From Cytobacillus oceanisediminis (GTDB lineage: Bacteria > Bacillota > Bacilli > Bacillales > Cytobacillaceae): a stretch of DNA of 64,000 nucleotides. The notes beneath the pieces were generated by a model, which was not told the origin of the DNA, did not search any database, and saw nothing but the letters and a program-made list of their open reading frames with translations. The stretch covers positions 3,961,501 to 4,025,500 of the forward strand of contig NZ_CP065511.1 in NCBI RefSeq assembly GCF_022811925.1, written 5' to 3'. A program made the translations under genes and the position numbers. Shown here one piece after another: positions 12,431-42,293 of the stretch (the first letter of the stretch is position 1; the number at the start of each line of letters is the position of its first letter).

Positions 12431-12442
12431 TCTTGCTGAAAA

Positions 12443-12482
12443 CGAATAAAAGCTTGAGATATTATTCTCAAGCTTTTATTCG
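12443..12482. terminator. strong bidirectional terminator
   Basis: A perfect 17-bp stem (12443-12459 with 12466-12482) around TATTAT, with A and T runs. It serves the zinc-ribbon gene and the convergent secreted-protein gene, whose stop lies in the stem. Confidence 0.9.
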
Positions 12483-13309: not shown

Positions 13310-13397
13310 AAGTTCCACTCATTTTTTATGTTTTTTCGGTTCAGCGTTATATATTGAGTTTCCCAAAAACAGGTTTTTTTCATTCATCTTAAGGAAT

Positions 13398-13430
13398 AAA
13401 AAAATCGCACAATTTGAGTGCGATTTTTCT
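13398..13430 (-). terminator. terminator of the CobW operon
   Basis: AAAAATCGCAC pairs with GTGCGATTTTT around an 8-base loop just beyond the CobW stop. Confidence 0.85.
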
Positions 13431-13435
13431 TATCT

Positions 13436-26324: not shown

Positions 26325-26618
26325 TTACTTATCATAGGAAGAGAAATCGAAATAATTTCGCTTCAGCAGCCTCGGCTGCTCCATCAATTTTTCAAAATTT
26401 ATTTCTTTTCCGATCTTTTTCGCATCAATTAAAAATAGTTGGTCCTCAATCTCCTTAACAAGATCATCGGACTGGTAAACCATATCACAATCCCTGCAGG
26501 AAATGGAAGGTGTCTCATTGATTTGGATGGCCCTTGTTCCATCAGGCAGCTCCCAATAAACAGTTTCCCTGCTCTCATTTATATTTTGGCTTTCACACCA
26601 TGCACATTTAATTTGCAT
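26325..26618 (-). CDS. yokU: YokU family zinc-finger-like protein
   Basis: A 97-residue protein with CAWC near residue 5 and CRDC near residue 45, a likely zinc-binding pair, ending in an aromatic NYFDFSSYDK tail. This matches the YokU family. ATG at 26618 has a perfect AGGAGG. It starts 10 bases after the kamA stop and is followed by a terminator, so it is co-transcribed with kamA. YokU is repeatedly found beside kamA; its role in lysine breakdown is unknown, perhaps as regulator or accessory factor. Confidence 0.82.
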   Translation of the reverse strand: MQIKCAWCESQNINESRETVYWELPDGTRAIQINETPSISCRDCDMVYQSDDLVKEIEDQLFLIDAKKIGKEINFEKLMEQPRLLKRNYFDFSSYDK

Positions 26619-26628
26619 TCTTAACCTC

Positions 26629-28059
26629 CTATTCCTTTGCCGCTGCCGTTTCGGCATCCGTTTCAGCTGCTGGATTCTGCTTCGTCTGCTGGGCATTGAA
26701 TTTCTTTTCCTTTAGTTCATCCCGTTTGTCACGTTTATCCTTCAATGAACTATGGGATGGATCGCTTTCATATTTTTCACGGCGGTCAAGTCTTGCAAGC
26801 CCTTCAGGTACAAGATTAAACTGCTGATCATTCATCAGCGCGGCTATTCCGACATTGGACCGTTTTTCATCCATTTCCGGGTAAACTTCTTTAAAATACC
26901 CTTCAGCACGGCCAGGAACATAGTTTTCCGGCTCCGGATAAGTGGTTATGACTCCTTCAAAATTACGAAGGACCACTTTATCGGCACTTTGTGATATCAG
27001 GTAATTCGGCTGCAAGGAGATTTTTCCGCCTCCCCCAGGCGCGTCCACAACAAAAGTTGGAACCGCATATCCCGAAGTATGTCCTCTTAATCCTTCAATG
27101 ATCTCAAGCCCTTTTGAAACTGGTGCACGGAAATGGCCAATGCCTTCAGATAGATCACATTGATAAATGTAATAAGGCCGGACCCGGATTTTAACAAGGT
27201 CATGCATTAGTTTTTTCATAATTGGAACGCTGTCGTTTATACCCGCCAAAATAACGGATTGGTTGCCAACCGGAACACCGGCATTTGCCAGCATCTCACA
27301 TGCTCTCTTGGAATCTTCGGTAATTTCAATAGAAGTATTAAAATGTGTATTTAGCCATACCGGATGATACTTTTTCAGGATACTGCATAAATTTTCGGTA
27401 ATCCGCTGCGGAAATACAACCGGTGCCCTCGTGCCGATTCTGATGATTTCAACATGATCAATTTCCCGCAAATTCTTCAGAATGTATTCAAGGATATTAT
27501 CATTGATTAAAAGTCCATCCCCGCCAGATATGAGAACGTCTCTAACCTGAGGGGCACTCCTGATATAGCTGATCGCTGCATCAAGCTGTTTTTTCGGCAC
27601 TCCCATGCCAATTTGACCGGAAAATCTCCTCCTTGTACAATAGCGGCAATACATGGAGCATTGGTTTGTCACCAGAAATAAGACACGGTCAGGATAACGG
27701 TGCGTCAGGCCAGGGACAGGTGAATCTTCATCTTCATGCAAAGGATCTTCAAGGTCATATTTTGTTTTATATATTTCTTTTGAAATTGGTACTGATTGCA
27801 TTCTTATCGGGCATCGCGGATCATCCGGATTCATTAGTGAAGCATAATAAGGTGTAATGTTCAGCGGAATCGTCTTAGTCGAGATTCTTACCCCTTCTTC
27901 CTCATCCGGAGTGAGATTTATGACTTTCTTCAGATCATCAACAGTGCGAATCGTATTTGTCAGCTGCCAAAGCCAATCATTCCATTGTTCTTCTGCGACA
28001 CCCTTCCACAGCTCAATGTCTTTCCAGTGCCGATCCGGCTTATATAAAAAGTTTTTCAT
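26629..28059 (-). CDS. kamA: L-lysine 2,3-aminomutase KamA
   Basis: A 476-residue radical-SAM, PLP enzyme. The cluster motif CxxxCxxC is at residues 134, 138 and 141 (CSMYCRYCTRRR), ISGGDGLL is the GGE-like SAM motif, and GGGGKISL contains the PLP lysine. It interconverts L-lysine and L-beta-lysine. The C-terminal 60 residues are a charged, Ala/Glu-rich extension with no clear domain. A sigma-54-type promoter (28098-28113) lies 39 bases upstream and the KamR-like activator gene is directly upstream. AGGGGG precedes the ATG. Confidence 0.95.
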   Translation of the reverse strand: MKNFLYKPDRHWKDIELWKGVAEEQWNDWLWQLTNTIRTVDDLKKVINLTPDEEEGVRISTKTIPLNITPYYASLMNPDDPRCPIRMQSVPISKEIYKTKYDLEDPLHEDEDSPVPGLTHRYPDRVLFLVTNQCSMYCRYCTRRRFSGQIGMGVPKKQLDAAISYIRSAPQVRDVLISGGDGLLINDNILEYILKNLREIDHVEIIRIGTRAPVVFPQRITENLCSILKKYHPVWLNTHFNTSIEITEDSKRACEMLANAGVPVGNQSVILAGINDSVPIMKKLMHDLVKIRVRPYYIYQCDLSEGIGHFRAPVSKGLEIIEGLRGHTSGYAVPTFVVDAPGGGGKISLQPNYLISQSADKVVLRNFEGVITTYPEPENYVPGRAEGYFKEVYPEMDEKRSNVGIAALMNDQQFNLVPEGLARLDRREKYESDPSHSSLKDKRDKRDELKEKKFNAQQTKQNPAAETDAETAAAKE

Positions 28060-28097
28060 TTAAATTCCCCCTATATGGATTTCTTTAAAATACTTAC

Positions 28098-28113
28098 TGC
28101 AAGAATCATGCCA
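28098..28113 (-). promoter_or_regulatory. sigma-54 (SigL) -24/-12 promoter of kamA
   Basis: The minus strand reads TGGCATGATTCTTGCA. Consensus TGGCAC-N5-TTGCA is met with one mismatch and the exact GG-N10-GC spacing. The upstream gene encodes a sigma-54 activator, and the kam locus of B. thuringiensis is reported to be SigL dependent. Confidence 0.85.
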
Positions 28114-28211
28114 TTTTTGAAGCTTTCGTATTATCATATGAAAACCTTGCCGGAGTGGCGATTGTTAGCAGCTGAGGGGATTTTTTTATTAAACTGGTAT
28201 CTTTGAAACAA

Positions 28212-28234
28212 AAAAAATGCCGATTATTCGGCAC
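28212..28234 (-). terminator. terminator of kamR, overlapping a KamR-motif copy
   Basis: TGCCGA pairs with TCGGCA around ATAA, then eight Ts. The 18-mer 28217-28234 (GTGCCGAATAATCGGCAT on the minus strand) also matches the motif before kamR and lies about 105 bp upstream of the -24 box, a normal enhancer distance. Confidence 0.7.
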
Positions 28235-29669
28235 TTTCATAATTACTGCAGAAACGGCTCCTGTTATTTATATCAATATTATACTTTGCCAGTTTATATT
28301 GCAGCGTTTGACGCGGAACCTCCAATAGCTTTGCGGCTCTTTTTATATTTCCATTGGTCTCTAGAAGAGCTTTTTCAATTAATGCTTTTTCCTGTTCTTC
28401 CATGCTCGCCTTTAATGGCTGAACCTTTAGTGAAACAACCTGTTTATCCTTTTGCAGCTGCTGTTTCATTATCACAGGCAAATCCTCTGCTTTAAGAAAA
28501 TTTTCTTCACAGACATTCATCATGTATTCGATTGTATGCTTTAATTCCCTGACATTTCCGGGCCAATGATATTGTCTGAAAAAGGCAAGCACATCATCCC
28601 CGATTCCTGAAAGGTTTTTGTGTAGAACCTGATTAAATCCCCTAATAAAATGATGTGCAAGAAATTCAATATCTTCTTTTCTATCCCTTAGAGGAAGGAG
28701 CCCGAAAGTGAGAACATTTAAGCGGTAAAATAAGTCTGTTCTGATTTGGTTTCTCTCCAGTGCTTCCACTGGATGGATATTCATGGCTGCAATCACTCTC
28801 ACATCTACATGGGAGTTCTTCGGGCTTCCCACTCTTCTGACAATCCCATCCTCCAGCACTCTAAGCAGTTTTGCCTGAAGCTCAATTGGCATGGCATGTA
28901 TTTCATCAAGGAAGAGTGTTCCCCCATCGGCTAATTCAAATAGCCCTGGCCTGTCTACAGCTCCTGTATAGCTTCCTTTAGCAGTCCCGAATAGAATGCT
29001 TTCAAGCAAGGGTTCCGGTATAGCTGCACAGTTCTGGGCAATAAATGGCCCGGCAGCTCTTGGGGAAGCATGGTGGAGTCCCTGAACAAAGAGCTCCTTT
29101 CCGCACCCGCTTTCGCCAAACACCAGAATGGAGGAATCAGACTTAGCCAGTTTGGCCGCTTCTTTTTTAATTTTTTGCATTTCCTGATTTATTGTGAGAA
29201 GGCTATCCAGTGTGTACTGGACATTATCAACAGCAGTCTTTTTTTTGACAGGCTGTTTTATTTTTTTTCGCAAATCCAGAAGGCTTTCAGAAAGAAGCTT
29301 CAACCTGGAATAGTCCTTAGCAATCTCAACAGCTCCCGCTACTTTCCCATCTACAGTAATAGGGAGAGTTGTATTAATGGTTTCTATTTGTGCGCCATGA
29401 AGGTTCACATAGGATTGCGTCTGGTTATAGATCGGTTTTTTTGTTTTCATTACTTTTAATAAGGTGCTTGTCTCTTTATCCAATGAAGGAAAGACTTTCA
29501 GAACAGGTTTTCCGATAACCTCAGAAACCTCCAGACCATCGTGTCTTGCAGCAATTTCATTATAAAAAATGGTATTTCCATTCAAATCTACTACATGAAT
29601 TCCTTCATCAATGCCCTTTAATATGGCTGCCAGAACTTCTTTTGAAATGCTTTGAGTTTCAGTCATCAA
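28224..29669 (-). CDS. kamR: sigma-54-dependent activator, KamR-like
   Basis: A 481-residue enhancer-binding protein. A PAS domain (about 10-115) is followed by a linker and the AAA+ core (about 165-400) with Walker A GESGCGKE, the sigma-54 contact loop in variant form GSYTGA, Walker B GTLFLDEIH and R-finger region. A Fis-type helix-turn-helix (NGNIKRAAKLLEVPRQTLQYKL) ends the protein. The PAS domain suggests activation by a pathway metabolite such as lysine or beta-lysine. It sits between ablB and kamA; two 18-bp motif copies lie upstream. GGAGGGG precedes the ATG. Confidence 0.9.
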   Translation of the reverse strand: MMTETQSISKEVLAAILKGIDEGIHVVDLNGNTIFYNEIAARHDGLEVSEVIGKPVLKVFPSLDKETSTLLKVMKTKKPIYNQTQSYVNLHGAQIETINTTLPITVDGKVAGAVEIAKDYSRLKLLSESLLDLRKKIKQPVKKKTAVDNVQYTLDSLLTINQEMQKIKKEAAKLAKSDSSILVFGESGCGKELFVQGLHHASPRAAGPFIAQNCAAIPEPLLESILFGTAKGSYTGAVDRPGLFELADGGTLFLDEIHAMPIELQAKLLRVLEDGIVRRVGSPKNSHVDVRVIAAMNIHPVEALERNQIRTDLFYRLNVLTFGLLPLRDRKEDIEFLAHHFIRGFNQVLHKNLSGIGDDVLAFFRQYHWPGNVRELKHTIEYMMNVCEENFLKAEDLPVIMKQQLQKDKQVVSLKVQPLKASMEEQEKALIEKALLETNGNIKRAAKLLEVPRQTLQYKLAKYNIDINNRSRFCSNYESAE

Positions 29670-29700
29670 AATCCCCTCCCATATATATGTATATGACAGG

Positions 29701-29740
29701 GTGCCGAAAATTTGTCAGGATGGTGCCGAAATACTGGCAC
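29701..29740 (-). promoter_or_regulatory. two candidate KamR operator/enhancer sites
   Basis: On the plus strand GTGCCGAAAATTTGTCAG (29701-29718) and GTGCCGAAATACTGGCAC (29723-29740) are 22 bp apart, two helical turns. They share GTGCCGAA and a trailing G-x-CA with the copy at 28217-28234. The second is a near-perfect inverted repeat. Position 32-71 bases before kamR suggests autoregulation. Confidence 0.6.
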
Positions 29741-30615
29741 TATTTTTTGTGGCCCCAGTAATCCGCTGCAGCCAAATTCTTTACCCAGACATTCATATTT
29801 TCAAGTTTATCGAAAATATAACAGTTGTTAAGAAGCCGGCCCCGATAGGAATAGCCCAGCTGATGCAGAACGGCATTCATTCCGAACGACAGCGCTCTGG
29901 CAATGGAGTAGGCACAGAATACACCCTGCGATTTTAAATCTTTTTCCAATTTTTCAAGGAGTATTTTCATTAAACCATGTTTACGGTGGGACGGAAGTGT
30001 CGCACAATCTGTCAGTTCTGCGTTTTTATAAAAAAGATTGACCTCCGCTGAAGCTCCACTGACAAGGTCATCATTATACTGAAATGCGTAATAGATGGTA
30101 CCTTCCTGGATGGTCTTTTTAATATATGAGGGATCATGGAGAGGTGTTGGATAAATTTGAAATACTTCCCGGTAAAGTGCAGCAAGTTTTTCAGCATCTT
30201 GCTCCGTTACTTTCAGGAGCTGATATTCGGAAGGAGGCATGATGACATCCGGGTTTCTTTCAATGGCAACTACATTTGTAATGATGCTGTCTTCAGAAAT
30301 CCAATGGGGATTGATTCTTCTTTCTTCAGAGAAATATTTACAGAAAAAGTATTGATCAGAGCCCCGGAAATACCCGTCAATAACAGCTTCGCACTGAAAA
30401 CCCTTAGCAAGCAGATCCATATAATTTTCCACTCTTCCTCTAAAAATTAATTTCTCACACTGGTGTTCTTTTGCCGTTTTCTCTGCTTCATGGACGGCAT
30501 CTTCCAATTTACCTGCATAATCGTCTACTCTTAAGCGTTTATTGAATGGATCAAGGTATAATTCGGCAAGAAAGTTTTCTTTTTTTATTATTTTTACAGA
30601 AGCTGTATTATGCAT
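29740..30615 (-). CDS. ablB: beta-lysine N6-acetyltransferase AblB (YodP)
   Basis: A 291-residue protein with a two-part layout: residues 1-125 form the AblB-specific N-terminal domain (KLIFRGRVENY, KGFQCEAVIDGYFRGSDQYFFCKYFS), and 130-275 a GNAT domain with the acetyl-CoA loop LPSHRKHGLMKIL and LSFGMNAVLHQLGY. AblB acetylates beta-lysine at N6. In methanogens this makes an osmolyte; here it is embedded in a catabolic cluster, so the product is probably a degradation intermediate. Its leader carries 21-bp repeats and an attenuator-like hairpin. AGAAGGGGG precedes the ATG. Confidence 0.92.
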   Translation of the reverse strand: MHNTASVKIIKKENFLAELYLDPFNKRLRVDDYAGKLEDAVHEAEKTAKEHQCEKLIFRGRVENYMDLLAKGFQCEAVIDGYFRGSDQYFFCKYFSEERRINPHWISEDSIITNVVAIERNPDVIMPPSEYQLLKVTEQDAEKLAALYREVFQIYPTPLHDPSYIKKTIQEGTIYYAFQYNDDLVSGASAEVNLFYKNAELTDCATLPSHRKHGLMKILLEKLEKDLKSQGVFCAYSIARALSFGMNAVLHQLGYSYRGRLLNNCYIFDKLENMNVWVKNLAAADYWGHKK

Positions 30616-30638
30616 AGCTCAGACCCCCTTCTATTAAA

Positions 30639-30663
30639 AAACTGCCCGGCCAAACGGCCAGGC
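30639..30663 (-). terminator. attenuator-like hairpin 20 bases before ablB
   Basis: TGCCTGGCC pairs with GGCCGGGCA around GTTT, followed by GTTTTTTAAT. A terminator this close to the ribosome site must be read through to express ablB. Confidence 0.65.
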
Positions 30664-30693
30664 ATTATAGATATATAAAGGAATTCGGGCCAA
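30664..30693 (-). promoter_or_regulatory. candidate sigma-A promoter of ablB
   Basis: Minus-strand TTGGCC, 18 bases, TATAAT. The -35 overlaps the first 21-bp repeat unit, so a protein bound there would interfere with or replace -35 contacts. Confidence 0.45.
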
Positions 30694-30768
30694 TACTGCC
30701 TTTTTACCGGCCAATTCGATTAAAATACCGGCCAAACTCAGGCATTTACCGGCCGAATAAAGTGAAAC
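30685..30768. repeat. four 21-bp tandem repeats upstream of ablB
   Basis: Units beginning at 30685, 30706, 30727 and 30748 share the core ACCGGCCAA (first copy TCGGGCCAA, last ACCGGCCGA). The cores are invariant while the 12-base spacers vary, which is the pattern of protein-binding iterons rather than simple slippage. Confidence 0.7.
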
Positions 30769-30770
30769 TT

Positions 30771-30965
30771 CAATCAGTGGGGGTGATTTTTCCCCACTGA
30801 TTGTTAGTTGAGGCCCACAGGAAGTGGGTCACAAAGACGTTGCCACAGGAGGTGGCGTTTCTTAGTCTTTGTTCTTCTTTTCGGGCCTTTACGGGCAGTT
30901 TGACCCCCACTTATCCCTCAATGATTTCTCCAGAGCCTTGAAGTGGAGGTCTTACTGCCCGTTAG
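30771..30965. ncRNA. multi-hairpin structured element between ALDH gene and ablB
   Basis: Four stems in series: CAATCAGTGGGG/CCCCACTGATTG (30771-30804); CCCAC-AGGAA-GTGGG (30814-30828); GCCAC-AGGAG-GTGGC (30842-30856) enclosed by AAAGAC/GTCTTT; and ACGGGCAG...CTGCCCGT (30891-30963) with an inner CCCACTT/AAGTGG. Two hairpins have AGGAN loops, as in the element at 21350. It could also end transcription of the aldehyde dehydrogenase gene. Strand not determined. Confidence 0.5.
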
Positions 30966-30992
30966 ACTGCGATAAAATTCCTGTCCATCATC

Positions 30993-32414
30993 TTAGTCAA
31001 TTTTAAAGCTGATCAGCTTCATCTCTGTCATTTCTTCAACAGCATATTTTATGCCTTCACGTCCCATTCCGCTCATTTTCACTCCACCATATGGCATATG
31101 GTCTACACGGAAGGTTGGGAAATCGTTAACCATCACACCGCCAACATGAAGCTCTTTTGCTGCTTTAAAGGCTTTGTTCACATCATTGGTGAAAACACCA
31201 GCCTGCAGGCCATAATCTGAATCATTCACAAGTGCCAGCGCCTCTTCAAAGCTGCTGAATGAATTGATATGAACAACAGGTGCAAATGCTTCCTCACATG
31301 AAATTTTTTCTGATTTATCAACGTTCAACAGGACGGTTGGGTGCAATGTATTATTTTCTGCCTTACCGCCAAGAGCAAGTTCTGCTCCGCTCTTAACGGC
31401 ACTCTCGATCCAGCTTTGAGCGCGGTCGGTGTTACTCTTGGAGATCATCGCAGAAATATCTGTTTCCTCATTAAGCGGATCGCCGATTTTCAGCTTTTTG
31501 GCTTCCTCAATAAAGCGTTCGGCAAATATCTGGTACAGGGATTCATGCACATAGATGCGCTGAACGGAAATACAAACCTGTCCCTGGAAGGCAAATGCCC
31601 CAGCTGCAATTCGCGGGACAATTTTCTCCACGTCTGCATTCTCATCCACTACAACTGCCGAGTTGGAACCCAATTCAAGCGTTACTCTCTTTAAGCCTGC
31701 ATTTTCGCGGATCTGCTTTCCTACTGCCGGGCTCCCTGTGAAAGTAATCATCGATATGCGGTCGTCTGCAACAAGTACATCCCCGACCGTTCCGCCGCTC
31801 CCTGTTATTACATTCAAAGCTCCATCAGGAAGTCCGGCTCTGTGAAAAATATCAGCTATTTTATATGCCGACATTGGCGTTTGGGATGCAGGCTTTAATA
31901 CAACCGTGTTGCCGGCAGCAATTGCAGGACCCACTTTATGGGCAACCAGGTTCATAGGAAAATTGAATGGAGTGATGGCGCCGATAATTCCAAGCGGCTC
32001 CTTTACTGTATAAGCAACCCTGCCTTCGCCTCCAGGAGCAGCATCCATTGGGATAGTCTCTCCATAAAGCTTGCGCGCTTCCTGGGCAGCGAAGGTATAT
32101 GTCATGATGGTGCGGTCCACTTCTCCTCTTGCAGCCTTTAGAGGTTTAGATGCTTCACGCGCAATGATCTTTGCGCACTCTTCATTTTCTTCCTTCATGA
32201 TGGCAACTGCATTTTCCAATATTTCCGCCCTTTTATGGGCAGGCATTTCAGCCATTACTTTTCTAGCCTGATCTGCCGCATCAATTGCCGACTTCACATC
32301 GGAAGGAGAAGCCATGGCGACTTCTGCAATAACCTCCCCGCTATAAGGGCTTTTCAATGCTTTGTAGTTCTCTGTTTCCTTGAACTTTCCGCTGATCCAT
32401 AAATGTTGTTTCAT
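30993..32414 (-). CDS. aldehyde dehydrogenase, proposed semialdehyde dehydrogenase (GabD role)
   Basis: A 473-residue NAD(P)-dependent aldehyde dehydrogenase. Key elements: TPFNFPMNLVAHKVGPAIA (NAD fold), GSPAVGK, catalytic Glu in TLELGSNS (about 250) and nucleophile Cys in FQGQVCISVQR (about 285). The GQVCIS context is that of the lactaldehyde/phosphonoacetaldehyde type rather than textbook SSADH. It starts 12 bases after gabT, so succinic semialdehyde is the most economical substrate; glutarate semialdehyde is an alternative. GGAGG precedes the ATG. Confidence 0.88.
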   Translation of the reverse strand: MKQHLWISGKFKETENYKALKSPYSGEVIAEVAMASPSDVKSAIDAADQARKVMAEMPAHKRAEILENAVAIMKEENEECAKIIAREASKPLKAARGEVDRTIMTYTFAAQEARKLYGETIPMDAAPGGEGRVAYTVKEPLGIIGAITPFNFPMNLVAHKVGPAIAAGNTVVLKPASQTPMSAYKIADIFHRAGLPDGALNVITGSGGTVGDVLVADDRISMITFTGSPAVGKQIRENAGLKRVTLELGSNSAVVVDENADVEKIVPRIAAGAFAFQGQVCISVQRIYVHESLYQIFAERFIEEAKKLKIGDPLNEETDISAMISKSNTDRAQSWIESAVKSGAELALGGKAENNTLHPTVLLNVDKSEKISCEEAFAPVVHINSFSSFEEALALVNDSDYGLQAGVFTNDVNKAFKAAKELHVGGVMVNDFPTFRVDHMPYGGVKMSGMGREGIKYAVEEMTEMKLISFKID

Positions 32415-32426
32415 TGGAATTCCTCC

Positions 32427-33758
32427 TTATGTGCAGCATTCACCTATTACTTCTTCTAGTACGGTTAATCCTTCATTGAGCTGTTCATTGGTTGTAATAA
32501 GCGGAGTGAGCAGGCGAATGATATTCCCATAGAGGCCTGCACTCATAACAATGAGGCCGCGCTTGTGCGCTTTTGACAGGACTTCCTGAACAATTTCCTT
32601 ATTGGGTTCCTTTGTATCCTGATCTTTAACAAATTCAATGGCACACATTGCCCCTAAAGAGCGAACTTCACCCACTTGCTTATATTTTAAAGGAAGATCT
32701 GAAAATTTTTCAGTAAAAAGGCTTCCGATTTCATTTGCCCTTCCTAATAATCCTTCTTCCTCAATTGTTCGAATCACTTCTAATGCGGCTACACAACCGA
32801 GCGGACTGCCTCCATAAGTTCCGCCAATTTCACCGATATTCGGTGAATCCATTATGTCAGCCCTGCCAGTTACAGCACTGATCGGCAATCCGGCACCGAT
32901 CGATTTTGACATCGTAATAAGATCCGGCACAACATCATAATGCTCCATGGCAAACATTTTGCCAGTCCTGCCAAATCCCGTCTGTACCTCATCAGCGATA
33001 AAGAGGATTCCATGTTTTTCACAAAGCTGTTTTACACCTTTTACAAAACGTGAAGACGGCATAACGAAACCGCCCTCACCCTGTACAGGCTCCATAATGA
33101 CAGCAGCAATTTCTTCAGGAGGCACCTCGCTGAGAAAAAAAGTTTCGAATCTCTTAAATAAGGCAAGATCATAATCTTTATCCTTCAAACCCTCACTGCG
33201 GTAATAATAAGGATAAGGCCATTTATATGTTTCAGGCGCAAATGGCCCGAATTCATATTTATATGGTTTAACCTTGCTCGTTAAACTCATGGACATATAG
33301 GTACGGCCATGAAAACCCCGTTCAAATGATATGATTCCTTTTCTGCCGGTATATTTCCTTGCTATCTTAACGGCATTTTCTACTGCCTCTGCGCCGGTGC
33401 TTAAAAAGAATGTTTTTTTGCTGTGATTTCCGGGTGTAATGCTGTTGAGTTTTTCTGCCAGCTTAATATAAGGCTCATACATCATGACATGAAAGCATGG
33501 ATGAAGATATTTGTCAATTTGGGCATGCAGGGCTTCTACAACCCTTGGCGGGCAGTGGCCAACATTTAGTGTTCCGATTGCCCCGGCAAAATCTAGAAAA
33601 GTATTTCCGTCTATATCTGTCAGAAGTGCTCCATCCCCCTTATCCGCAAATGTCTGCATCGTGTTAAATGGTCCCTTTGGCACATTCTGCTCTTTTTTAG
33701 CCAATAATTCCTTCGCTCTCGGTCCCGGTATCTCCGTTCTTATTTTAATTGATCCCAT
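32427..33758 (-). CDS. gabT: 4-aminobutyrate aminotransferase GabT
   Basis: A 443-residue class III PLP aminotransferase. STGAEAVENAVKIARKYTGR, the aspartate motif FIADEVQTGFGRTG, the PLP lysine in ITMSKSIGAGLP and GGTYGGSPLGCVAALEV are all present, and the pattern fits GabT (GABA plus 2-oxoglutarate to succinic semialdehyde plus glutamate). Three ATGs in a row follow AGAGGGG; the third (33758) has the best spacing. It lies between the YodQ-like and aldehyde dehydrogenase genes. The B. subtilis yod operon, as I recall it, has no gabT here. Confidence 0.88.
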   Translation of the reverse strand: MGSIKIRTEIPGPRAKELLAKKEQNVPKGPFNTMQTFADKGDGALLTDIDGNTFLDFAGAIGTLNVGHCPPRVVEALHAQIDKYLHPCFHVMMYEPYIKLAEKLNSITPGNHSKKTFFLSTGAEAVENAVKIARKYTGRKGIISFERGFHGRTYMSMSLTSKVKPYKYEFGPFAPETYKWPYPYYYRSEGLKDKDYDLALFKRFETFFLSEVPPEEIAAVIMEPVQGEGGFVMPSSRFVKGVKQLCEKHGILFIADEVQTGFGRTGKMFAMEHYDVVPDLITMSKSIGAGLPISAVTGRADIMDSPNIGEIGGTYGGSPLGCVAALEVIRTIEEEGLLGRANEIGSLFTEKFSDLPLKYKQVGEVRSLGAMCAIEFVKDQDTKEPNKEIVQEVLSKAHKRGLIVMSAGLYGNIIRLLTPLITTNEQLNEGLTVLEEVIGECCT

Positions 33759-33772
33759 CATCATTTCCCCTC

Positions 33773-35038
33773 TCACTGATTAGTGCCGCACCATTCCAGC
33801 ATTGCCAGAGCAATGATTTCAGCAGCTTCATAGACTTCCTGCAAGGAAATATATTCGTTAACATCATGGGCTGCTTCAGTTACACCGGGCCCGAAGACAA
33901 CTACAGGTGTATTCCCCACTTTGGATAATATGCCTCCATCCGTGCCCCAGGGTGATGCTTCAACTGCCGGCTGCATGCCTTTTACTTCTTCAAAAGACTC
34001 CGATAATACGGTCATTAGAGGGTGATCCTGTTCCAAATCACCAGGCAGCCAGCGTCCGCCGAACCATTCAACTTGAGGAGGGTTCTTTTTTAGCCACTCA
34101 TCATTTTGTGCTGCTTTCTTTAGACACTGCACCAGCTCTTTTTCCGCAGATTTCATTTCTTCATCTGGCGCCACTCCCATCCTCCCCTCTAAGATGGCAA
34201 TATCCGGCACTGAAGATGGCCATTCTCCGCTATTTATTTTTCCGATATTAATAGGGATCGGAATAGGAATCTTTGAATATAGCGGATCCTCAATTCTAAG
34301 GTTTCTTAATTTCTCAAGTTCCTGAAGCTTTGTCATCACTATCATGGCTTTTTCGATTGCATTGATACCTTCATATCGGGTTCCTCCATGAGCAGAACGC
34401 CCTTTGACTGTTATCCGGAACCACATTGAACCCTGCTGTTTTGGAAAAAGCTTCATATTTGTCGGTTCGGGAATGATTGCCCCGTCGGCTGTATAACCCC
34501 GGAGGACAGCAGCCAAAGTACCCGCCCCTCCACTTTCCTCTTCAATGACACTTTGGAATATCACATCTCCTTTAAGCTTGATTCCAAGCGTTATGATGGC
34601 TTCCATTGCAAGCAGGAGCGAGACTGTTCCCCCTTTCATATCCGTCGAACCCCGGCCATATAGTTTTCCATCTTCGATTCTTCCGCTAAATGGATCATGA
34701 TCCCAATCATTTCGGTCTCCCTCTGGAACAACATCAATATGGCCATTGAGGATAAGGGACCTTCCCCCGCCTGTTCCTTTCAAAGTAGCCACCACATTGG
34801 GATTTCCGGAAAAATCCTTTCTATCCGAACAAAAGGCAGGATGTTTGGTCAATTGCTCCTTTCCAATCTCCCAAATATCAAGGGATAGTCCAAGTTTGCG
34901 GCATTTTTCAATGATGACAGCCTGTGCACTGCTTTCTTTCCCACGGATGCTTCCTTCCTGGACCAGCTGCTGAAGAAGTCTTGTTCCCCTTTGCCTATTT
35001 TCTTCCAGCCACTGTTTAATCTTTGCATGAGCATTCAT
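33773..35038 (-). CDS. M20 family deacetylase, YodQ-like
   Basis: A 421-residue ArgE/DapE-type metallohydrolase. NGHIDVVPEGD provides the first zinc His and catalytic Asp, GRGSTDMKGG the bridging Asp, VIEEESGG the catalytic and metal Glu, and VVVFGPGVTEAAHDVNEY the last metal His. The middle (about 190-310) is the dimerisation domain. Relatives remove N-acetyl groups from acetylornithine or succinyl-DAP. In this operon a 4-acetamidobutyrate or N-acetyl-beta-lysine-derived substrate is likely. AAAGGAGTGAG precedes the ATG. Confidence 0.88.
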   Translation of the reverse strand: MNAHAKIKQWLEENRQRGTRLLQQLVQEGSIRGKESSAQAVIIEKCRKLGLSLDIWEIGKEQLTKHPAFCSDRKDFSGNPNVVATLKGTGGGRSLILNGHIDVVPEGDRNDWDHDPFSGRIEDGKLYGRGSTDMKGGTVSLLLAMEAIITLGIKLKGDVIFQSVIEEESGGAGTLAAVLRGYTADGAIIPEPTNMKLFPKQQGSMWFRITVKGRSAHGGTRYEGINAIEKAMIVMTKLQELEKLRNLRIEDPLYSKIPIPIPINIGKINSGEWPSSVPDIAILEGRMGVAPDEEMKSAEKELVQCLKKAAQNDEWLKKNPPQVEWFGGRWLPGDLEQDHPLMTVLSESFEEVKGMQPAVEASPWGTDGGILSKVGNTPVVVFGPGVTEAAHDVNEYISLQEVYEAAEIIALAMLEWCGTNQ

Positions 35039-35086
35039 ATTCTCACTCCTTTTTTGAGACCACAGCCAAACATAGGATACTATCTA

Positions 35087-35749
35087 TCAATTAATCACTC
35101 TCACATTCCCAGCAATTGTAAAACTGCAGCCGGTTTTCGCCCTGACTGCATTAACCGAGTGCGGCGCAAACAATTCAGTCAGTGTCAGACCATGATTTGT
35201 TATTTGAAAGACAGCCATCTCCGTAATAATCATGTCTACACAGCGGGCAGATGTAAGAGGCAGACTACACTCGTTCACAATTTTTGAATTTCCATACTTG
35301 TCTGTCTGGTTCATAAGGACAATTACTTTTTTGGCTTTTTGGGCAAGTTCCATTGCCCCGCCCATGCCAGGAACTTTTTTACCGGGCACAATCCAATTGG
35401 CCAGATCTCCCTTTTTACTCACCTGCAGGGAGCCAAGGATCGTCATATCAACTCTTCCTCTGCGTATCATCCCGAAGGCAATAGTACTGTCGCAATAAGA
35501 AGCACCTTTTACAACGGAAACCGGAAAACCGCCAGCATTACAGAGATTTTCATCTTCCTTCCCTTTCTCCGGACTTGGCCCCATACCTGTAATGCCATTT
35601 TCAGCATGAAACATCACTTTTGTCCCAGCTGGCAAATGATTGGGAACAAGCGAAGGGATTCCGATGCCGAGATTTACAATCATCCCGTTCTTTATTTCTT
35701 CAGCAGCACGTTTTGCAATGCGATCTCTGATTTCTACTCCCATGCCCAT
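35087..35749 (-). CDS. 3-oxoacid CoA-transferase subunit B, YodS-like
   Basis: A 220-residue family I CoA-transferase beta subunit. The glyoxylate/Glu active-site region reads MFHAENGITGMGP, with the Glu that forms the thioester intermediate. VVKGASYCDSTIAFGMIRRG and ANWIVPGKKVPGMGGAMEL are typical of the ScoB/AtoA group. It overlaps the subunit A gene by 16 bases. ATG at 35749 follows AAAGGAG by 10 bases; TTG at 35755 is the alternative. With subunit A it should move CoA onto a beta-keto acid. Confidence 0.88.
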   Translation of the reverse strand: MGMGVEIRDRIAKRAAEEIKNGMIVNLGIGIPSLVPNHLPAGTKVMFHAENGITGMGPSPEKGKEDENLCNAGGFPVSVVKGASYCDSTIAFGMIRRGRVDMTILGSLQVSKKGDLANWIVPGKKVPGMGGAMELAQKAKKVIVLMNQTDKYGNSKIVNECSLPLTSARCVDMIITEMAVFQITNHGLTLTELFAPHSVNAVRAKTGCSFTIAGNVRVIN

Positions 35750-36426
35750 TTCCAATTCACTCCTTTCGAAGGGACAATATAATCCACAAAAACCCCTGGT
35801 GTTATAATTTCATCAGGATCGAGGCTGCCAAGAGGGACGATTTCCTCCACTTCTGCAATGGTCATATCTCCTGCCATAGCAACAAGCGGGTTTGTGTTTC
35901 TCGCACTTTTGTCATAAATCAAGTTTCCGTAGGGATCAGCTTTTTTTGCAAAGACAATGGATATTTCAGCCGTTAGAGCCGATTCGACGAGATAATTTTT
36001 CCCACTCAAATTACATGTTTGTTTATTGCTGGTTACAATGTCATTATCAAGGCCAATATCGGAAAGAATGGCAGGGATGCCGACTCCCCCTGCACGGATT
36101 CTTTCTGCCAATATCCCCTGTGGTGAAAATTCCACTTCCATTTTCCCATCTGTCATTAATTGGCCGGCTACGGGATTTGAGCCAATATGGGAAGCAATCA
36201 TTTTTTTTGCCCTTCCCTGGCTGACCACTTTCCCGATGCCAATATGGGGAAAACCTGAATCATTGCCAATAAGCGTTAAGTCTTTGAATCCATTATCCAA
36301 AATGCCGTCAATAAGGGCAGGCGGGGTGCCAATTCCGCCGAATCCGCCAAACATAATGATCATGCCATCCCGAAAATGCTTCATTGCCTCATCAAGTTCA
36401 ATGATTTTGTTAAAAGTGTTTTCCAT
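35734..36426 (-). CDS. 3-oxoacid CoA-transferase subunit A, YodR-like
   Basis: A 230-residue CoA-transferase alpha subunit. MIIMFGGFGGIGTPPALIDGI is the CoA-binding glycine-rich signature, and SHIGSNP and GGVGIPA are conserved downstream. It works as a heteromer with the overlapping subunit B. The gene begins 2 bases after the aminotransferase stop, so the operon is tight. The substrate proposed from context is 3-oxo-6-acetamidohexanoate. Confidence 0.88.
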   Translation of the reverse strand: MENTFNKIIELDEAMKHFRDGMIIMFGGFGGIGTPPALIDGILDNGFKDLTLIGNDSGFPHIGIGKVVSQGRAKKMIASHIGSNPVAGQLMTDGKMEVEFSPQGILAERIRAGGVGIPAILSDIGLDNDIVTSNKQTCNLSGKNYLVESALTAEISIVFAKKADPYGNLIYDKSARNTNPLVAMAGDMTIAEVEEIVPLGSLDPDEIITPGVFVDYIVPSKGVNWKWAWE

Positions 36427-36428
36427 AT

Positions 36429-37787
36429 TTATTCAGCCTCTTCCTCAGCAAAGATCATGTGTTTTTCTGTGAAAATCTGTAAAGTTCTATCAAACCTTTT
36501 CACAAGATCATCAATTTCCCTTTTGGTAATGGTAAGCGGCGGTGCAATCAATACAGCATCTCCATCTGTGCCCGTTTTGCCTGCACCCGCAGGGTAAATA
36601 AGCAGTCCCTGTTCCTGAGCTTCCTGTATTAATCTCTGTGTCAGACTGAACCTTCTTGAAAACGGCTCTCTGGACAGATGATCTTTTACAAATTCAAGTC
36701 CGATCATTAGTCCTTTTCCTCTTACATCACCAATAAAAGAAAATTTGGATTGCAGTTTTGTCAACTTATTTCTCAAATACACACCTTTGCTATCCACTTC
36801 AGGAATGATGTTATTTTTCTCAATATACTCAAGCACTGCGAGAGAAACAGCGCAGGACTGAGGATTGGCACTCAAGGTATGGCCACTCATAATGCTCTTT
36901 GACCCTGCCAATATAGGCTTCATAACTTCATCGCTTACAAGGGCAGCCGCAATCGGTGCATACCCGGCTCCCATTCCTTTACCAAGTGCGACAATATCAG
37001 GTTTCACATTCCATTGCTCACAGGCAAGCATTGTCCCCGTTCTGCCAAAACCAGTCATAACCTCATCAGCAATAAATAAAATGTCATACCGGTCACAAAT
37101 TTCTTTTATTATCCGGTAGTAATCCTTTGGAGGGGTAATAGCACCCCCTGCAGCCCCAATGACTGGCTCTGCGATAAATGCTGCAATATTCTCTTGCCCT
37201 ATCCGTTTAATGACGGTTTCAAGTTCATGGGCACACAAATAACCGCATTCAGGCGCTTCTAGATTGTAGGGGCACCTATAGCAATATGGCGGATGAATGA
37301 CAGGAAAATCTTCAAGCAGCGGTATGAAGCGCGCCCTTCTGCCCGTATGACCTGACATCGATAAAGCACCCAGGGTTATGCCATGATAGCTCATCCACCT
37401 TGAAAGCACCTTTGTTTTTGTCTGAATGCCTTTTTCCTGCCAGTATTGAATCGCTATTTTCATAGCTGTTTCAGTGGCCTCAGACCCGCTGTTCACAAAA
37501 AAGCTCCAATTCAAGTCGCCAATCGCTGCTTCTGCTATTTTATGGGCAAGCTTTTCAGCTGCCCCGCTGGTAAATTGCGAACGATACACAAAAGAGACTT
37601 TCTTAGCCTGTTCATGCATTGCCTCAATGATTTCCTCAATACCATGGCCAATATTGGCTGTTATCGCACCAGACGATGCATCCAAATATTCCTTTCCGTC
37701 AGTATCATATAAATAGACGCCTCTGCCATAATCAATAACTGGATAATGTACATGAAGCATTGGCTTAATTAGGTTTGATTGTTCCAT
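36429..37787 (-). CDS. class III PLP aminotransferase, YodT-like
   Basis: A 452-residue fold type I aminotransferase, distinct from the GabT of the same operon. The Asp motif is FIADEVMTGFGRTG, the PLP Lys is in IVALGKGMGAGYAP, and an unusual Cys cluster PPYCYRCPYNLEAPECGYLC lies near residue 165. YodT is the first gene of the operon, after GGAGGGG. It probably removes the 3-amino group of N6-acetyl-beta-lysine to give the 3-oxo acid for the CoA-transferase. That reaction is inferred from operon order. Confidence 0.88.
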   Translation of the reverse strand: MEQSNLIKPMLHVHYPVIDYGRGVYLYDTDGKEYLDASSGAITANIGHGIEEIIEAMHEQAKKVSFVYRSQFTSGAAEKLAHKIAEAAIGDLNWSFFVNSGSEATETAMKIAIQYWQEKGIQTKTKVLSRWMSYHGITLGALSMSGHTGRRARFIPLLEDFPVIHPPYCYRCPYNLEAPECGYLCAHELETVIKRIGQENIAAFIAEPVIGAAGGAITPPKDYYRIIKEICDRYDILFIADEVMTGFGRTGTMLACEQWNVKPDIVALGKGMGAGYAPIAAALVSDEVMKPILAGSKSIMSGHTLSANPQSCAVSLAVLEYIEKNNIIPEVDSKGVYLRNKLTKLQSKFSFIGDVRGKGLMIGLEFVKDHLSREPFSRRFSLTQRLIQEAQEQGLLIYPAGAGKTGTDGDAVLIAPPLTITKREIDDLVKRFDRTLQIFTEKHMIFAEEEAE

Positions 37788-38000: not shown

Positions 38001-41000
38001 TTAAATAATGCTTTTTTTCAGGTTCATTAGATCAATGTCTTCCTCTGCAAGTTCTTGAAAATATCCTTCTTCATCATGATGAAAGACATACTCAAGTTCT
38101 TCTTCAGCTTCTTTCAATCTATTTAAGATTGAAAGATAGCAAGCTTTATTATATCTCGCTATCAAAAGGTCAGGATCAATTTCAAGCGCTTCCTCCATTA
38201 GTTTTAGTGATTTTTCAACATCCTTTATTTTATGAAAAGAAATAGCCAGTTCAATATATAAGGAAGTATCCTCGTTATGAACCTCTAATCCTTCTTCCAT
38301 AATCTCTATCGCTTCTTCATACCGTTTTCTTTTATTTAATAATTGTCCGTATCTAAAATGGGCCTCTTTTTCATACGGATTTTCTATTAACACCTTTCTA
38401 AAGATTGTTTCTGCCTGGGTGAATCGCATCCTGTGTGTAAATGCAACTGCCTTTAAGAGCATGAGATGTGTATCGTCCGGTTTTTCTTTTAAGCAGGCAT
38501 CCAGCAGTTTTATTGCTGTGTTCATCTCTGCCGCTTCCTCAATGGGATCATTCCCGCCCGCCATATGCATCTGTGCAAGCTGATAGGCTGTAATAAAATC
38601 CCAATCTTTTTCAAGAGAAGACTTCAGAACCTTTTTGGCATCCTCCTCAAGATTTACAGATTCATAGAATCCGGCAAGACCGATTGGTGCATTTTTATTA
38701 AGCGGATTATGTCTGATTGAGGATTCATATAAGTCGGCAATCACTCCAAACAAAGTGATTTGCTTTGTCTTTTCTCTCATCTTTTGAACAAACCTTCCAA
38801 TGAAGGAGGATTTTTGATCAGCTTCCCAATCCACACCGCTTGCATGCAGGGCCAATGCATCAGCTGCCTTTAAGAATACCTGGCTTTTTTCCGTTTTTTC
38901 AGTTCTAATTTTCCCGAGGAATGCCGGAAGGTGTATTATTTTATTGGTTTCGACAAATAGCACAATTAAAGTTTCATATAAGTCTTCATCATCCCAATAT
39001 TCTTTAATAAGTTCCTCCAGAAATTTCCTAGCCTCTTTATATTTCTTATTCTTTATAAGCAATTTTGAATAGTGATGTCTTAATTCAGCCAATTGAGAAT
39101 CCAGATTCAGGGCCTGCAAAAGACATTCCTCTTCCTTGATTCTGTCTCCTTCAGCTCCATAAGCATAAGCAAGGCTATCCAATCTCCATGTTTCCAGAAC
39201 TTCTCCCTGCATACGAATTAATCTTTCAATAAATCCCCGAAGCTCTTCCATGGATAGCAAGCTTGATAGATATTCAATATTAACTCTTAACGGAGCCTTA
39301 TCAATCAGCTTGAGCATATACTCTGTTTCCTTCAGTTCATTTCCCAAAATCCCATAGATTTGTGCGATGCGGCTATATGCCCCCTCTGTTTCAGGATCAA
39401 GATCAAGACATTTTCTTAATGCTTTAACCGCCAGTTCAAACTTTTCAAGTCTAAAATACGTTTCCCCCAGCCTGTAGTATGGAAAAGCTGTTTCATTTTT
39501 CCCGATGGCTCTTTTGTATAGGCTAATTGCTTCAGCATATCGCTCAGCACTTTCATATAAAGTGCCCGCATAGCATAGATAGTCAGTTTGGGAGCCTTCA
39601 CCAGCCTTTGCTTCCAGAAAAGCGATTGCACGATTCACGTAAGACGATTCTTCTACTATGTTTACATAAAGTTCCAGGGCTTCATCCATATTTTGATCAA
39701 CGTAGTTAAAACCTCTTTCAATTAAAGACATTCCTGCCTCCAGCAGGTGGGAATCCTTCAGGCCTTGTGCGAAGTCTGCAACCAGTTTGCCGCCATTTAT
39801 TAAAAATTCGCTATCCTTACAAAAACGTTCTGCATGTTGTCTTATAAATTCAGCTGCTTCATCAGGCCTCTTCGTTTCAGAGATAGCAAATGCATAACCT
39901 AGATAGGCAAAAACCTCATCAGGATTTTCTTCAATACAGGAGAAGTAAATACTCTCTGCTTTTTCATATTCCTCATGATCTTTGTAAAGATCACCCAAGC
40001 GAATTAGAATCTGCGGACTTCCTGATAACCCCACTCCTTTCATTAAAATCTCTTCGGCACGCATTTTGTCTTCAAATAAATATTCATAGCAGTCGGCAAG
40101 AGCCAGATATGGATAAGAATTTTCCGGATCCAGGCTGGCTGAAATCATATAGCCTCTTTCTGCTTTGCGGATTTTTCCTTCTGCCTGGTCAAGCTTCGCT
40201 CTCTCATACCATACATGCGAATCACAATGATCTTCACGAAGCAGCTGGCTGAATATCGAGCGTGCTTCATTGTACTTTTCCTGATCCGTAAGAATTATGG
40301 CATGATTTACTCTAATAAAGCGGTCTTGCTCATTTATATTTAGTGCAATGTCTGACATTTCTTTCGCATTTTCCGTCTCAGAATTATAGAGGAAGCATAG
40401 CGCAATATAACTCCAAATATAGTATTGATCCGGGTCAAGCTGAAGGGATTTTCTGAAAAAGCCGATCGCAAAATGGTTTTCATCCTTATACATCTGAATC
40501 CTTCCATTCAAATATTGGTATAATGGGCTGAAGGTTTTTCTATTGACAAGTGTTAAAATCTTTTCCGCTCGATCGATTTCGTTTAAACGTATATATGCCT
40601 GAGCTGCATGCAGCTTAAAAAAGTCAGACTCAGGAAAAATGGCAAGCAGCTTTTCGGAACATTGAATAATGAATTCTTTGTGTCTATCCCCGGAAAAAAA
40701 CTTTAATGTATATATGAGCGTATAAGGTTCATTCATTGAAGAAGATAAAAAGTCTGCCATAGCCGGTTCATTTTTCATTATGTCTTCTTCAACAATTTCC
40801 GAAAGGGAGTGAAGTTTCTTATAATACAGGTGCTCATCCATAGGCAGGAATTCAAGCTCCGCCTCTCTCTCTTTTGGCACTGCCGCAATCGACAAAGAAT
40901 TTGTATTAACAGCAAGCTTTTGGAACTCTTCATAAGGAACATACATTGTATCAAGAAAGTTTGGATCTTGTACCAAATAAAAGCCAAATCGTTCATCAAT

Positions 41001-42206
41001 CCCAATCATAACCTGCACATGTGAAGATGCCTCAAAGTCCACACTAAGGATGACGGGTATCCCCTGCTGCAATAATGCCTTATAACGCTCCTTATCACCT
41101 GTAAAGAAACGGCATGCGAAACCTTCTTTTTCAAGGTATTCCGCAGATGCAGACAGCTTTGAACCAGTCACATCAAAAATATGTTCAGCAATATCATCCT
41201 GAGTTTCCTTTTTTCCAAAATAAGAAAAGAGCATTTCAAAGCTGGCAGGCACACAGTAATTGCTTTTCTGTACAACTGGATTGATTGAGAGCTTTACTGC
41301 ATCACCTGTTTCAGAAAACCCCTTATCTCCTGAGAAAGGGCTGTCCTTCATTTTCTTCAGAGAGATAATGTGATGTAATTTTTCAAGTTCATTTTTTTGA
41401 TAGTAGGAAACAGCTATAAGATGTTCAAAATAGCGCTTATAACTGTGAAAAGGAACAAGTCGATCGAGCTCACTTATTTCTGATAGCATGTCCTCATGCA
41501 AGCCGAAATCCCTGTATCTGCGAATAAGCTCCAATCTTAATGCAGGCGCCTGCGGGTGGACTTCCATTCCCTCTTTAATCGTTTGAAGAGACTTTTCCCC
41601 TCCTCCATTTGATGCGTATAGATCTGATAACAAAAGATAACAAACAAGTCCCCGGTCTTCATCTCTCAGGCCAGCCGTTAAATGTGATTCTGCCTTTGCA
41701 CGGTCTCCTGTCTGCAGATAATAAAATCCAAGTTTATCCCAGATTGGCTTTTCGCTGATCTCCTCCATTTCAACGAGCCTCTTCACTGCTTCTTTTGTTC
41801 TTTTTAACTCAAGAAGGCTATGTACTTCTGTAAATAATGCACTTATTCTCAGCTCAGTGTCTGCTTCATGCGGCATCTTTTTCAAATATTCCGTTATAAT
41901 ATTATTTGCTTCCAGTGACCTGCCGCTGTCAATTAACTCATCGCAATACCAAATGGCGGTTTGAAGTGTTTTAAAACGCCTGTGTGCATAACGGGCAAGA
42001 AACCCGCTATATTGGTACATCAATCCACGGTCAAATAATCGTATGAGCAGCTTAAAATCATCAACTGAAGTTATTTTTGCTAATTTATTCTTAATAATTG
42101 AGAACTTTGATTTTTTCATATCTTCCAATTCATTAGCCAGAACTTTCAGCGCCTTTAAAAACTGCCTGTCTTCTGCCAGGCCTCTTAGATTTTTCAAAAT
42201 TTCCAT
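38001..42206 (-). CDS. giant TPR protein with embedded C39-like cysteine-protease domain
   Basis: About 1,401 residues. TPR-like helical repeats fill residues 1-290 and 470-1401 (units such as AKAESHLTAGLRDED, EKAESIYFSCIEENPDEVFAYLGYAFA, ELAVKALRKCLDLDPETEGAY). Between them lies a C39/papain-like domain: Gln-x4-Cys (QKSNYC, Cys at 318), His at 396 (SSHVQVMIGID) and Asp at 414 (VQDPN), all in correct order. No signal peptide or membrane segment, so the protein should be cytoplasmic. ATG at 42206 follows GAGGTG. No lantibiotic or transporter genes adjoin it. Substrate unknown. Confidence 0.85.
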   Translation of the reverse strand: MEILKNLRGLAEDRQFLKALKVLANELEDMKKSKFSIIKNKLAKITSVDDFKLLIRLFDRGLMYQYSGFLARYAHRRFKTLQTAIWYCDELIDSGRSLEANNIITEYLKKMPHEADTELRISALFTEVHSLLELKRTKEAVKRLVEMEEISEKPIWDKLGFYYLQTGDRAKAESHLTAGLRDEDRGLVCYLLLSDLYASNGGGEKSLQTIKEGMEVHPQAPALRLELIRRYRDFGLHEDMLSEISELDRLVPFHSYKRYFEHLIAVSYYQKNELEKLHHIISLKKMKDSPFSGDKGFSETGDAVKLSINPVVQKSNYCVPASFEMLFSYFGKKETQDDIAEHIFDVTGSKLSASAEYLEKEGFACRFFTGDKERYKALLQQGIPVILSVDFEASSHVQVMIGIDERFGFYLVQDPNFLDTMYVPYEEFQKLAVNTNSLSIAAVPKEREAELEFLPMDEHLYYKKLHSLSEIVEEDIMKNEPAMADFLSSSMNEPYTLIYTLKFFSGDRHKEFIIQCSEKLLAIFPESDFFKLHAAQAYIRLNEIDRAEKILTLVNRKTFSPLYQYLNGRIQMYKDENHFAIGFFRKSLQLDPDQYYIWSYIALCFLYNSETENAKEMSDIALNINEQDRFIRVNHAIILTDQEKYNEARSIFSQLLREDHCDSHVWYERAKLDQAEGKIRKAERGYMISASLDPENSYPYLALADCYEYLFEDKMRAEEILMKGVGLSGSPQILIRLGDLYKDHEEYEKAESIYFSCIEENPDEVFAYLGYAFAISETKRPDEAAEFIRQHAERFCKDSEFLINGGKLVADFAQGLKDSHLLEAGMSLIERGFNYVDQNMDEALELYVNIVEESSYVNRAIAFLEAKAGEGSQTDYLCYAGTLYESAERYAEAISLYKRAIGKNETAFPYYRLGETYFRLEKFELAVKALRKCLDLDPETEGAYSRIAQIYGILGNELKETEYMLKLIDKAPLRVNIEYLSSLLSMEELRGFIERLIRMQGEVLETWRLDSLAYAYGAEGDRIKEEECLLQALNLDSQLAELRHHYSKLLIKNKKYKEARKFLEELIKEYWDDEDLYETLIVLFVETNKIIHLPAFLGKIRTEKTEKSQVFLKAADALALHASGVDWEADQKSSFIGRFVQKMREKTKQITLFGVIADLYESSIRHNPLNKNAPIGLAGFYESVNLEEDAKKVLKSSLEKDWDFITAYQLAQMHMAGGNDPIEEAAEMNTAIKLLDACLKEKPDDTHLMLLKAVAFTHRMRFTQAETIFRKVLIENPYEKEAHFRYGQLLNKRKRYEEAIEIMEEGLEVHNEDTSLYIELAISFHKIKDVEKSLKLMEEALEIDPDLLIARYNKACYLSILNRLKEAEEELEYVFHHDEEGYFQELAEEDIDLMNLKKSII

Positions 42207-42293
42207 TCTGCACCTCATTTGGGTATGTTAGAAATATAATACAAACATTTACAGAGATTTACTACAGGAAATGGTTGTATTTTATTCTTCACA

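Follow-up and report, generated by a model that had tools for sequence, protein, structure and literature searches.

A cluster of ten genes in Cytobacillus oceanisediminis likely encodes a catabolic route from lysine to succinate in which acetylation would act as a protecting group. The cluster, yodT-ctfA-ctfB-yodQ-gabT-aldh-ablB-kamR-kamA-yokU, occupies positions 26325-37787, entirely on the minus strand, of a stretch of 64,000 nucleotides (contig NZ_CP065511.1, positions 3,961,501 to 4,025,500), which we refer to as the window; the window genome searched comprises 5.58 Mb and is a near relative of Cytobacillus oceanisediminis and C. firmus. The genes are tightly packed, with overlaps between yodQ and gabT and between ctfA and ctfB:

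36429..37787, minus strand: yodT, class III aminotransferase (NF005375, Aminotran_3, pyridoxal phosphate (PLP)-lysine motif)
35734..36426, minus strand: ctfA (YodS/R-type), 3-oxoacid CoA-transferase subunit A (TIGR02429 above cut-off)
35087..35755, minus strand: ctfB, 3-oxoacid CoA-transferase subunit B (TIGR02428 above cut-off, ENG motif)
33773..35038, minus strand: yodQ, M20 family deacylase (NF005373 and TIGR01910 above cut-off, M20 domains, metal-site motifs)
32427..33776, minus strand: gabT, gamma-aminobutyrate (GABA)--2-oxoglutarate aminotransferase (TIGR00700 and NF005376 above cut-off)
30993..32414, minus strand: aldh, aldehyde dehydrogenase (PF00171; under the specific cut-offs shown)
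29740..30615, minus strand: ablB (yodP), beta-lysine N6-acetyltransferase (TIGR03827)
28224..29669, minus strand: kamR-like PAS/sigma-54 activator (domain matches; sigma-54 contact loop GSYTGA)
26629..28059, minus strand: kamA, lysine 2,3-aminomutase (TIGR03820, CxxxCxxC)
26325..26696, minus strand: yokU, small zinc-finger-like protein (TIGR03829, PF14122)

These ten same-strand genes had been listed in a sequence-only reading of the window, and their coordinates and family assignments were confirmed except for the specificity of the aldehyde dehydrogenase. In the proposed route, KamA would convert lysine to beta-lysine, AblB would acetylate its N6, and YodT would transaminate the 3-amino group of N6-acetyl-beta-lysine to give 6-acetamido-3-oxohexanoate, onto which CtfAB would place coenzyme A (CoA). 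A thiolase, unlinked here and present in the operon in a few relatives, would then release acetyl-CoA and 4-acetamidobutyryl-CoA, and the latter would probably pass its CoA to the next 3-oxo acid. YodQ would split 4-acetamidobutyrate (or its CoA ester) into acetate and GABA, which GabT and the dehydrogenase would convert to succinate. It is sound to read the acetyl group as protective because, on chemical grounds, a free 6-amino group on the 3-oxo acid is expected to cyclise; deacetylation would follow once the chain has been cleaved.

Family assignments and conservation of the module

The functions of three enzymes are supported by curated families, namely KamA (TIGR03820, 644.6 bits at a cut-off of 525.4), AblB (TIGR03827, 314 bits; 205.1) and GabT, which reaches the curated equivalog score (TIGR00700, 598.6 bits; 506.65, and NF005376, 688.5; 676). 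Family cut-offs are also exceeded by YodT (NF005375, 745.6 bits; 535), CtfA (TIGR02429, 212.3; 128.5), CtfB (TIGR02428, 303.5; 243.55), YodQ (NF005373, 696.2; 428, and TIGR01910, 394.7; 217.6) and YokU (TIGR03829, 143.5; 90.85), and the KamR-like activator has PF00158, PF00989, PF08448 and HTH_8 above cut-off, that is, PAS, sigma-54 activator and Fis-type helix-turn-helix domains. From family and neighbourhood we infer the functions of YodT, CtfAB, YodQ, the aldehyde dehydrogenase and the thiolase. The catalytic motifs that we take to be expected of the cluster enzymes are present: CxxxCxxC in KamA, the metal-site motifs of YodQ, the PLP lysines of YodT and GabT, the cysteine of the aldehyde dehydrogenase and the ENG glutamate of the CoA-transferase. 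One operon carries two class III aminotransferases, YodT and GabT.

For comparison, a scan of named genomes provided 380 loci, of which the best 80 were kept (named loci). In a class-wide sample YodQ was found (E <= 1e-120) in 72 of 398 genomes, and 71 of these, all but the window's, provided 73 further loci (survey loci), with same-strand neighbours called at identity floors of 50% for gabT and aldh and 35% for the other genes. YodQ identity is 90-97% across the seven nearest named loci. The grouping of the genes is not due to chance, since yodT, ctfA, ctfB, yodQ, ablB, kamR and kamA occur together in 73 of the 80 named loci; five of the remaining seven stop at a contig end. The other two (L012 and L013, from Cytobacillus relatives) keep T-A-B-Q-P-R and show neither kamA nor yokU behind kamR within the fetched stretch. 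In 67 of the 73 survey loci, yodT, ctfA and ctfB share one strand. The operon in distant families often adjoins a divergent PucR-family regulator (PF07905 and HTH_30 in the one scanned, at L130); ablB then lies beyond the regulator and kamA in another part of the genome. More loosely related YodQ matches from other parts of the phylum were also considered, and L138 and L139, the two of twelve that were read, show no module.

AblB accompanies YodQ across genomes. Within 299 genomes, AblB scored above cut-off in 52 of 54 with YodQ versus 19 of 245 without (Fisher 1.8e-39, uncorrected for kinship); in total it is found in 68 of the 72 YodQ genomes, and KamA exceeded its cut-off in 28 of the 31 YodQ genomes tested. 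The platelet factor is beta-lysin, a substance different from beta-lysine, and many genomes link AblB to KamA and the yod genes. Both points argue against AblB being a defence against host antibacterial 'beta-lysine', a role that has been proposed for BC2249 of B. cereus (PMC6962202) and that we regard as hardly credible.

The presence of gabT inside the locus, to which the sequence-only reading had drawn attention, proved recurrent but not obligatory. Traces of gabT were found in 18 of the 80 named loci (16 full length, 2 broken), traces of aldh in 29 and both in 14, and every copy lies between yodQ and ablB where ablB is seen. In the survey, 20 of the 73 loci have gabT next to yodQ in the same orientation (18 within 131 bp), and in 37 aldh lies within 9 kb of yodQ, again in the same orientation. 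This recurrent placement between yodQ and ablB supports an exit through GABA. The window GabT is the only TIGR00700 match of its genome at E <= 1e-150, the next aminotransferases having 40% identity; with GABA as the exit, the genome's only GABA transaminase above the family cut-off would thus sit in a lysine operon. A tree built from 34 GabT copies inside the locus and 40 that stand alone (40 of 84 matches) unites 16 in-locus copies, the window's included, in one supported clade. The in-locus label needs six changes on this tree, at least five of which are forced by well supported branches, and a single origin of in-locus gabT is therefore rejected.

Alternatively, gabT and aldh might serve other pools, such as polyamine-derived GABA or 5-aminovalerate, and be placed here for shared expression only. 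The sole GabT above cut-off may indeed serve all GABA of the cell, many genomes keep gabT elsewhere, and the aldehyde dehydrogenase may have another specificity. We nevertheless consider this alternative improbable, as gabT and aldh are repeatedly placed directly after yodQ in distant families. Furthermore, ablB is found downstream of yodQ in 87 loci, and an unannotated gap of more than 700 bp lies between the two only in L158. Of the 25 largest families of recurring neighbours listed for the named loci, not one falls inside the operon, the yodQ-ablB interval included, on the coding strand.

Thiolase and the coenzyme A donor

The interval from yodT to yodQ was read in 149 loci (80 named and 69 survey loci; L021 equals L123, leaving 148 distinct), and only ctfA, ctfB and, in four of them, a thiolase were recognised there. 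In L064, L175 and L180, yodT is next to yodQ with neither ctfA nor ctfB recognised between them. The module includes a thiolase in five of the 73 survey loci, which belong to four genera: in L143, L147, L151 and L152 it lies between yodT and yodQ, and in L203 another thiolase follows directly after yodQ. Two of the five were tested and both exceed the TIGR01930 cut-off. In a small tree of 15 rows, including ten thiolases of the window genome, the four yodT-yodQ thiolases form a clade, and 0% of 200 bootstrap trees unite all five, so that a thiolase was probably recruited into the module twice. L143 (X-T-A-B-thiolase-Q-G-D-R-K-U-P) combines every proposed step with kamR and yokU in one stretch. 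In L151, a glutamate dehydrogenase-family gene precedes yodT (PF00208, PF02812; under the curated NCBIfam cut-offs), and its product would regenerate 2-oxoglutarate for the two transaminases.

Because no other recognised gene lies between yodT and yodQ, a CoA loop suggests itself. We tentatively consider that the route may run as a self-priming CoA cycle, with neither a thioesterase nor an outside donor, and that in Bacilli the operon may supply the genes for the acetyl-protected beta-lysine pathway, long an orphan, with its exit at GABA; this full version is somewhat doubtful. It is possible, if rather unlikely, that the same route runs with no closed loop, YodQ being a deacetylase-thioesterase of the Barker type acting on 4-acetamidobutyryl-CoA and CtfAB taking CoA from succinyl-CoA or acetyl-CoA. 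A Pseudomonas deacetylase-thiolesterase acting on 4-acetamidobutyryl-CoA was reportedly described by Ohsugi et al. in 1981, and the score of CtfA, 257.5 of the 315 bits required for acetate CoA-transferase subunit alpha, leaves room for another CoA donor. On the other hand, M20 enzymes are amidases and the M20 domains are the sole Pfam matches of YodQ that pass cut-off, which is not decisive.

Cleavage by a BKACE enzyme, which would replace both transferase and thiolase, was rejected, as PF05853 has no match in the window genome. Lysine fermentation via 3-aminobutyryl-CoA likewise starts with KamA and involves, or is discussed with, thiolase and CoA-transferase genes (PMC3149608); the window genome differs in its lack of a PF05853 match.

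Two of the thiolase-bearing genomes offer side observations. In L203, an ABC transporter (permease PF00528, ATPase PF00005) occupies positions 11966-14285 between the thiolase and gabT; its binding protein is nearest to cystine and lysine/arginine types, under cut-off, and it may import a substrate of the pathway. G503 has three YodQ copies (L152, L201 and L202) and neither AblB nor KamA above cut-off, and its yodT copy beside the thiolase (L152) is in two pieces, possibly by decay or sequencing error.

The proposed lysine route weighed against counter-evidence and known systems

Gene by gene, the lysine-to-succinate route put forward by the sequence-only reading fits most of the comparative data, but the aldehyde dehydrogenase is not a curated succinic semialdehyde dehydrogenase (SSADH) and gabT is not obligatory. 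Unless stated otherwise, the observations in this and the next two paragraphs weigh against the route. Assignment of the aldehyde dehydrogenase to SSADH by curated family was rejected (TIGR01780, 385.8 versus a cut-off of 646.35). It is an Aldedh protein and stays below the cut-off in each of the 25 NCBIfam matches shown, the best being the archaeal lactaldehyde dehydrogenase family NF040648 (552.6 versus 650), and its nearest solved structures include lactaldehyde dehydrogenase and ALDH21. Of the residues that reportedly bind the ALDH21 substrate, two arginines are apparently kept but no tyrosine, as judged visually under a presumed shift in numbering; as proof of SSADH activity these residues are non-discriminating, since a lactaldehyde dehydrogenase has the two arginines as well. 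An SSADH function is proposed for this enzyme, and the substrates of YodT, CtfAB, YodQ, the dehydrogenase and the thiolase are likewise predicted.

GabT above cut-off is missing from eight of the 72 YodQ genomes, three of which (G183, G202 and G285) have the aldehyde dehydrogenase in the locus; there another aminotransferase must serve or the exit differs. In the usual place between yodQ and ablB, L011 and L052 contain gabT remnants (pieces and 103 residues, respectively) and the aldh of L028 is reduced to two short scraps, which indicates that gabT and aldh were, at least partly, lost in place. The eight genomes together with the broken gabT of two named relatives mean that gabT is not obligatory. 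The thiolase had been expected to come from elsewhere: none was found in the window cluster or the 80 named loci (queries: the ten thiolases of the window genome, E 1e-8). In favour of the route, ten full-length thiolase genes are present elsewhere in the window genome, and a few relatives carry one in the operon.

Of the genomes with a thiolase in the module, three (G131, G149 and G170) show both KamA and AblB above cut-off, G289 shows only KamA, and in G503 both are missing, so that AblB is absent from the genomes of two of the five thiolase loci. G503, G531 and G041 lack both KamA above cut-off and AblB while yodQ remains, and the module may therefore take other substrates there. Together with G289, these exceptions speak against a strict co-occurrence of YodQ with AblB and KamA. 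At the physiological level, B. thuringiensis HD73 did not obtain its nitrogen from lysine in the conditions that were tried (PMC4428206), and for kamA and yodT of B. subtilis control by sigma-E, in sporulation, has been reported (PMC6522883).

The result from HD73 also favours a different interpretation, in which the core makes and recycles N6-acetyl-beta-lysine as a compatible solute that the yod genes clear later, lysine being no growth substrate. AblA and AblB are known as solute enzymes of methanogens, and 19 of 71 AblB genomes are without YodQ, which means that AblB has other uses. Such a solute role is nonetheless quite improbable for this cluster, as AblB accompanies YodQ so regularly (see above) and an operon that includes thiolase, gabT and aldh speaks for complete oxidation.

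The lysine-to-succinate route is not without precedent. Barker's group is said to have worked out beta-lysine degradation in Pseudomonas B4 between the 1970s and 1981, reportedly with no cloned genes. This pathway shares N6-acetyl-beta-lysine, 3-keto-6-acetamidohexanoate, 4-acetamidobutyryl-CoA, GABA and succinate with the proposed route and uses separate transaminases for N6-acetyl-beta-lysine and GABA. It differs in being biochemical and from another phylum, and AblB matches its N6-acetyltransferase step by family only (TIGR03827). From this resemblance, the route would not be new chemistry.

In B. subtilis 168, the yodT-yodS-yodR-yodQ-yodP-kamA operon matches the window in its core enzymes and in their order. 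The locus tags of KamA (BSU19690) and YodT (BSU19740) leave room for four genes only (PMC6522883), from which the earlier statement that this operon has neither gabT nor the dehydrogenase holds by inference; the reported sigma-E control is a further difference from the window. The kam locus of B. thuringiensis HD73 (PMC4428206) resembles the window in that kamA lies behind the PAS/sigma-54 activator gene kamR, in six genes upstream of kamA, kamR included, and in a -12/-24 site about 38 bp before the kamA start codon (39 bp in the window). It differs by a separate gab cluster under GabR, whereas the window locus holds gabT and aldh inside. As in the Bacillus kam locus, the window has kamA together with ablB and yodT-CoA-transferase-yodQ, an upstream activator gene in the same direction and a -12/-24 site, the last judged by sequence only.

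Already known are the kam locus with KamR in B. thuringiensis (PMC4428206) and the yod operon in B. subtilis, where the part played by KamA in physiology is called undetermined and that of YodT unknown (PMC6522883). In the open PubMed Central literature, judged by titles and the start of abstracts, an assignment of yodT, yodR, yodS and yodQ to this route was not found. The comparison adds a variant locus with the exit genes and a few relatives with a thiolase, and hence a full gene list. From the variants bearing gabT, dehydrogenase and thiolase, each reaction of the route can be assigned to a concrete gene. An old pathway, not known to have assigned genes, thereby becomes testable with purified enzymes, and a lysine-to-GABA route would become readable from genomes.

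Regulation, RNA elements and flanking gene

The following further features lie within the cluster:

30814..30881, minus strand: Bacillaceae-1 RNA repeat in the aldh-ablB gap (Rfam RF01690, 72.9 bits)
30643..30664, minus strand: terminator-like hairpin directly before ablB (weak: 12 such sites in the region versus 12.7 from shuffles)
28213..28238, minus strand: terminator-like hairpin at the kamR end (weak: likewise 12 versus 12.7, no more than in shuffles)
28098..28114, minus strand: -12/-24 sigma-54-type site of kamA (one mismatch; 39 bp from the start codon)

Neither kamA's own sigma-54-type site nor the Bacillaceae-1 repeat was mentioned in the sequence-only reading. Taken alone, the kamA site is unremarkable, as the window has five such sites versus 2.9 expected. 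The case for it is made by conservation: a sigma-54-type site is kept before kamA in 71 of 73 relatives, compared with a background of 0.013 per 200 bp, and in 67 of the 71 the first base of the motif lies 49-56 bp before the kamA start. Such sites were found before none of 80 yodT, 76 ablB and 75 kamR genes in the named loci. Switching of kamA therefore appears to be separate, by a sigma-54-type promoter and the KamR-like activator, and because of this own site and the hairpin at the kamR end, kamA-yokU can probably be switched independently of the genes upstream. A result from one relative, B. cereus ATCC 14579, speaks against sigma-54 control there: an rpoN mutant showed unaltered kamA expression (PMC4524646). 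The contact loop of the KamR-like activator reads GSYTGA, the usual loop of sigma-54 activators being GAFTGA (PMC4428206).

The predicted fold of the aldh-ablB gap (30620-30990) is much more stable than those of shuffled sequences (z -8.4). A second RF01690 element is present in the window at 21553-21620 on the minus strand, and 32 copies exceed the gathering score genome-wide. In relatives, the element is found in the aldh-ablB gap of L001 and L004 and is absent from that of L003, L005, L006 and L007. Given the 32 copies and this patchy presence, it looks like a dispersed repeat, and it is probably an insertion and no part of the pathway.

Directly upstream of yodT, at 38001-42218 on the minus strand, lies a gene for a tetratricopeptide-repeat protein of 1405 residues with a C39-like peptidase domain.

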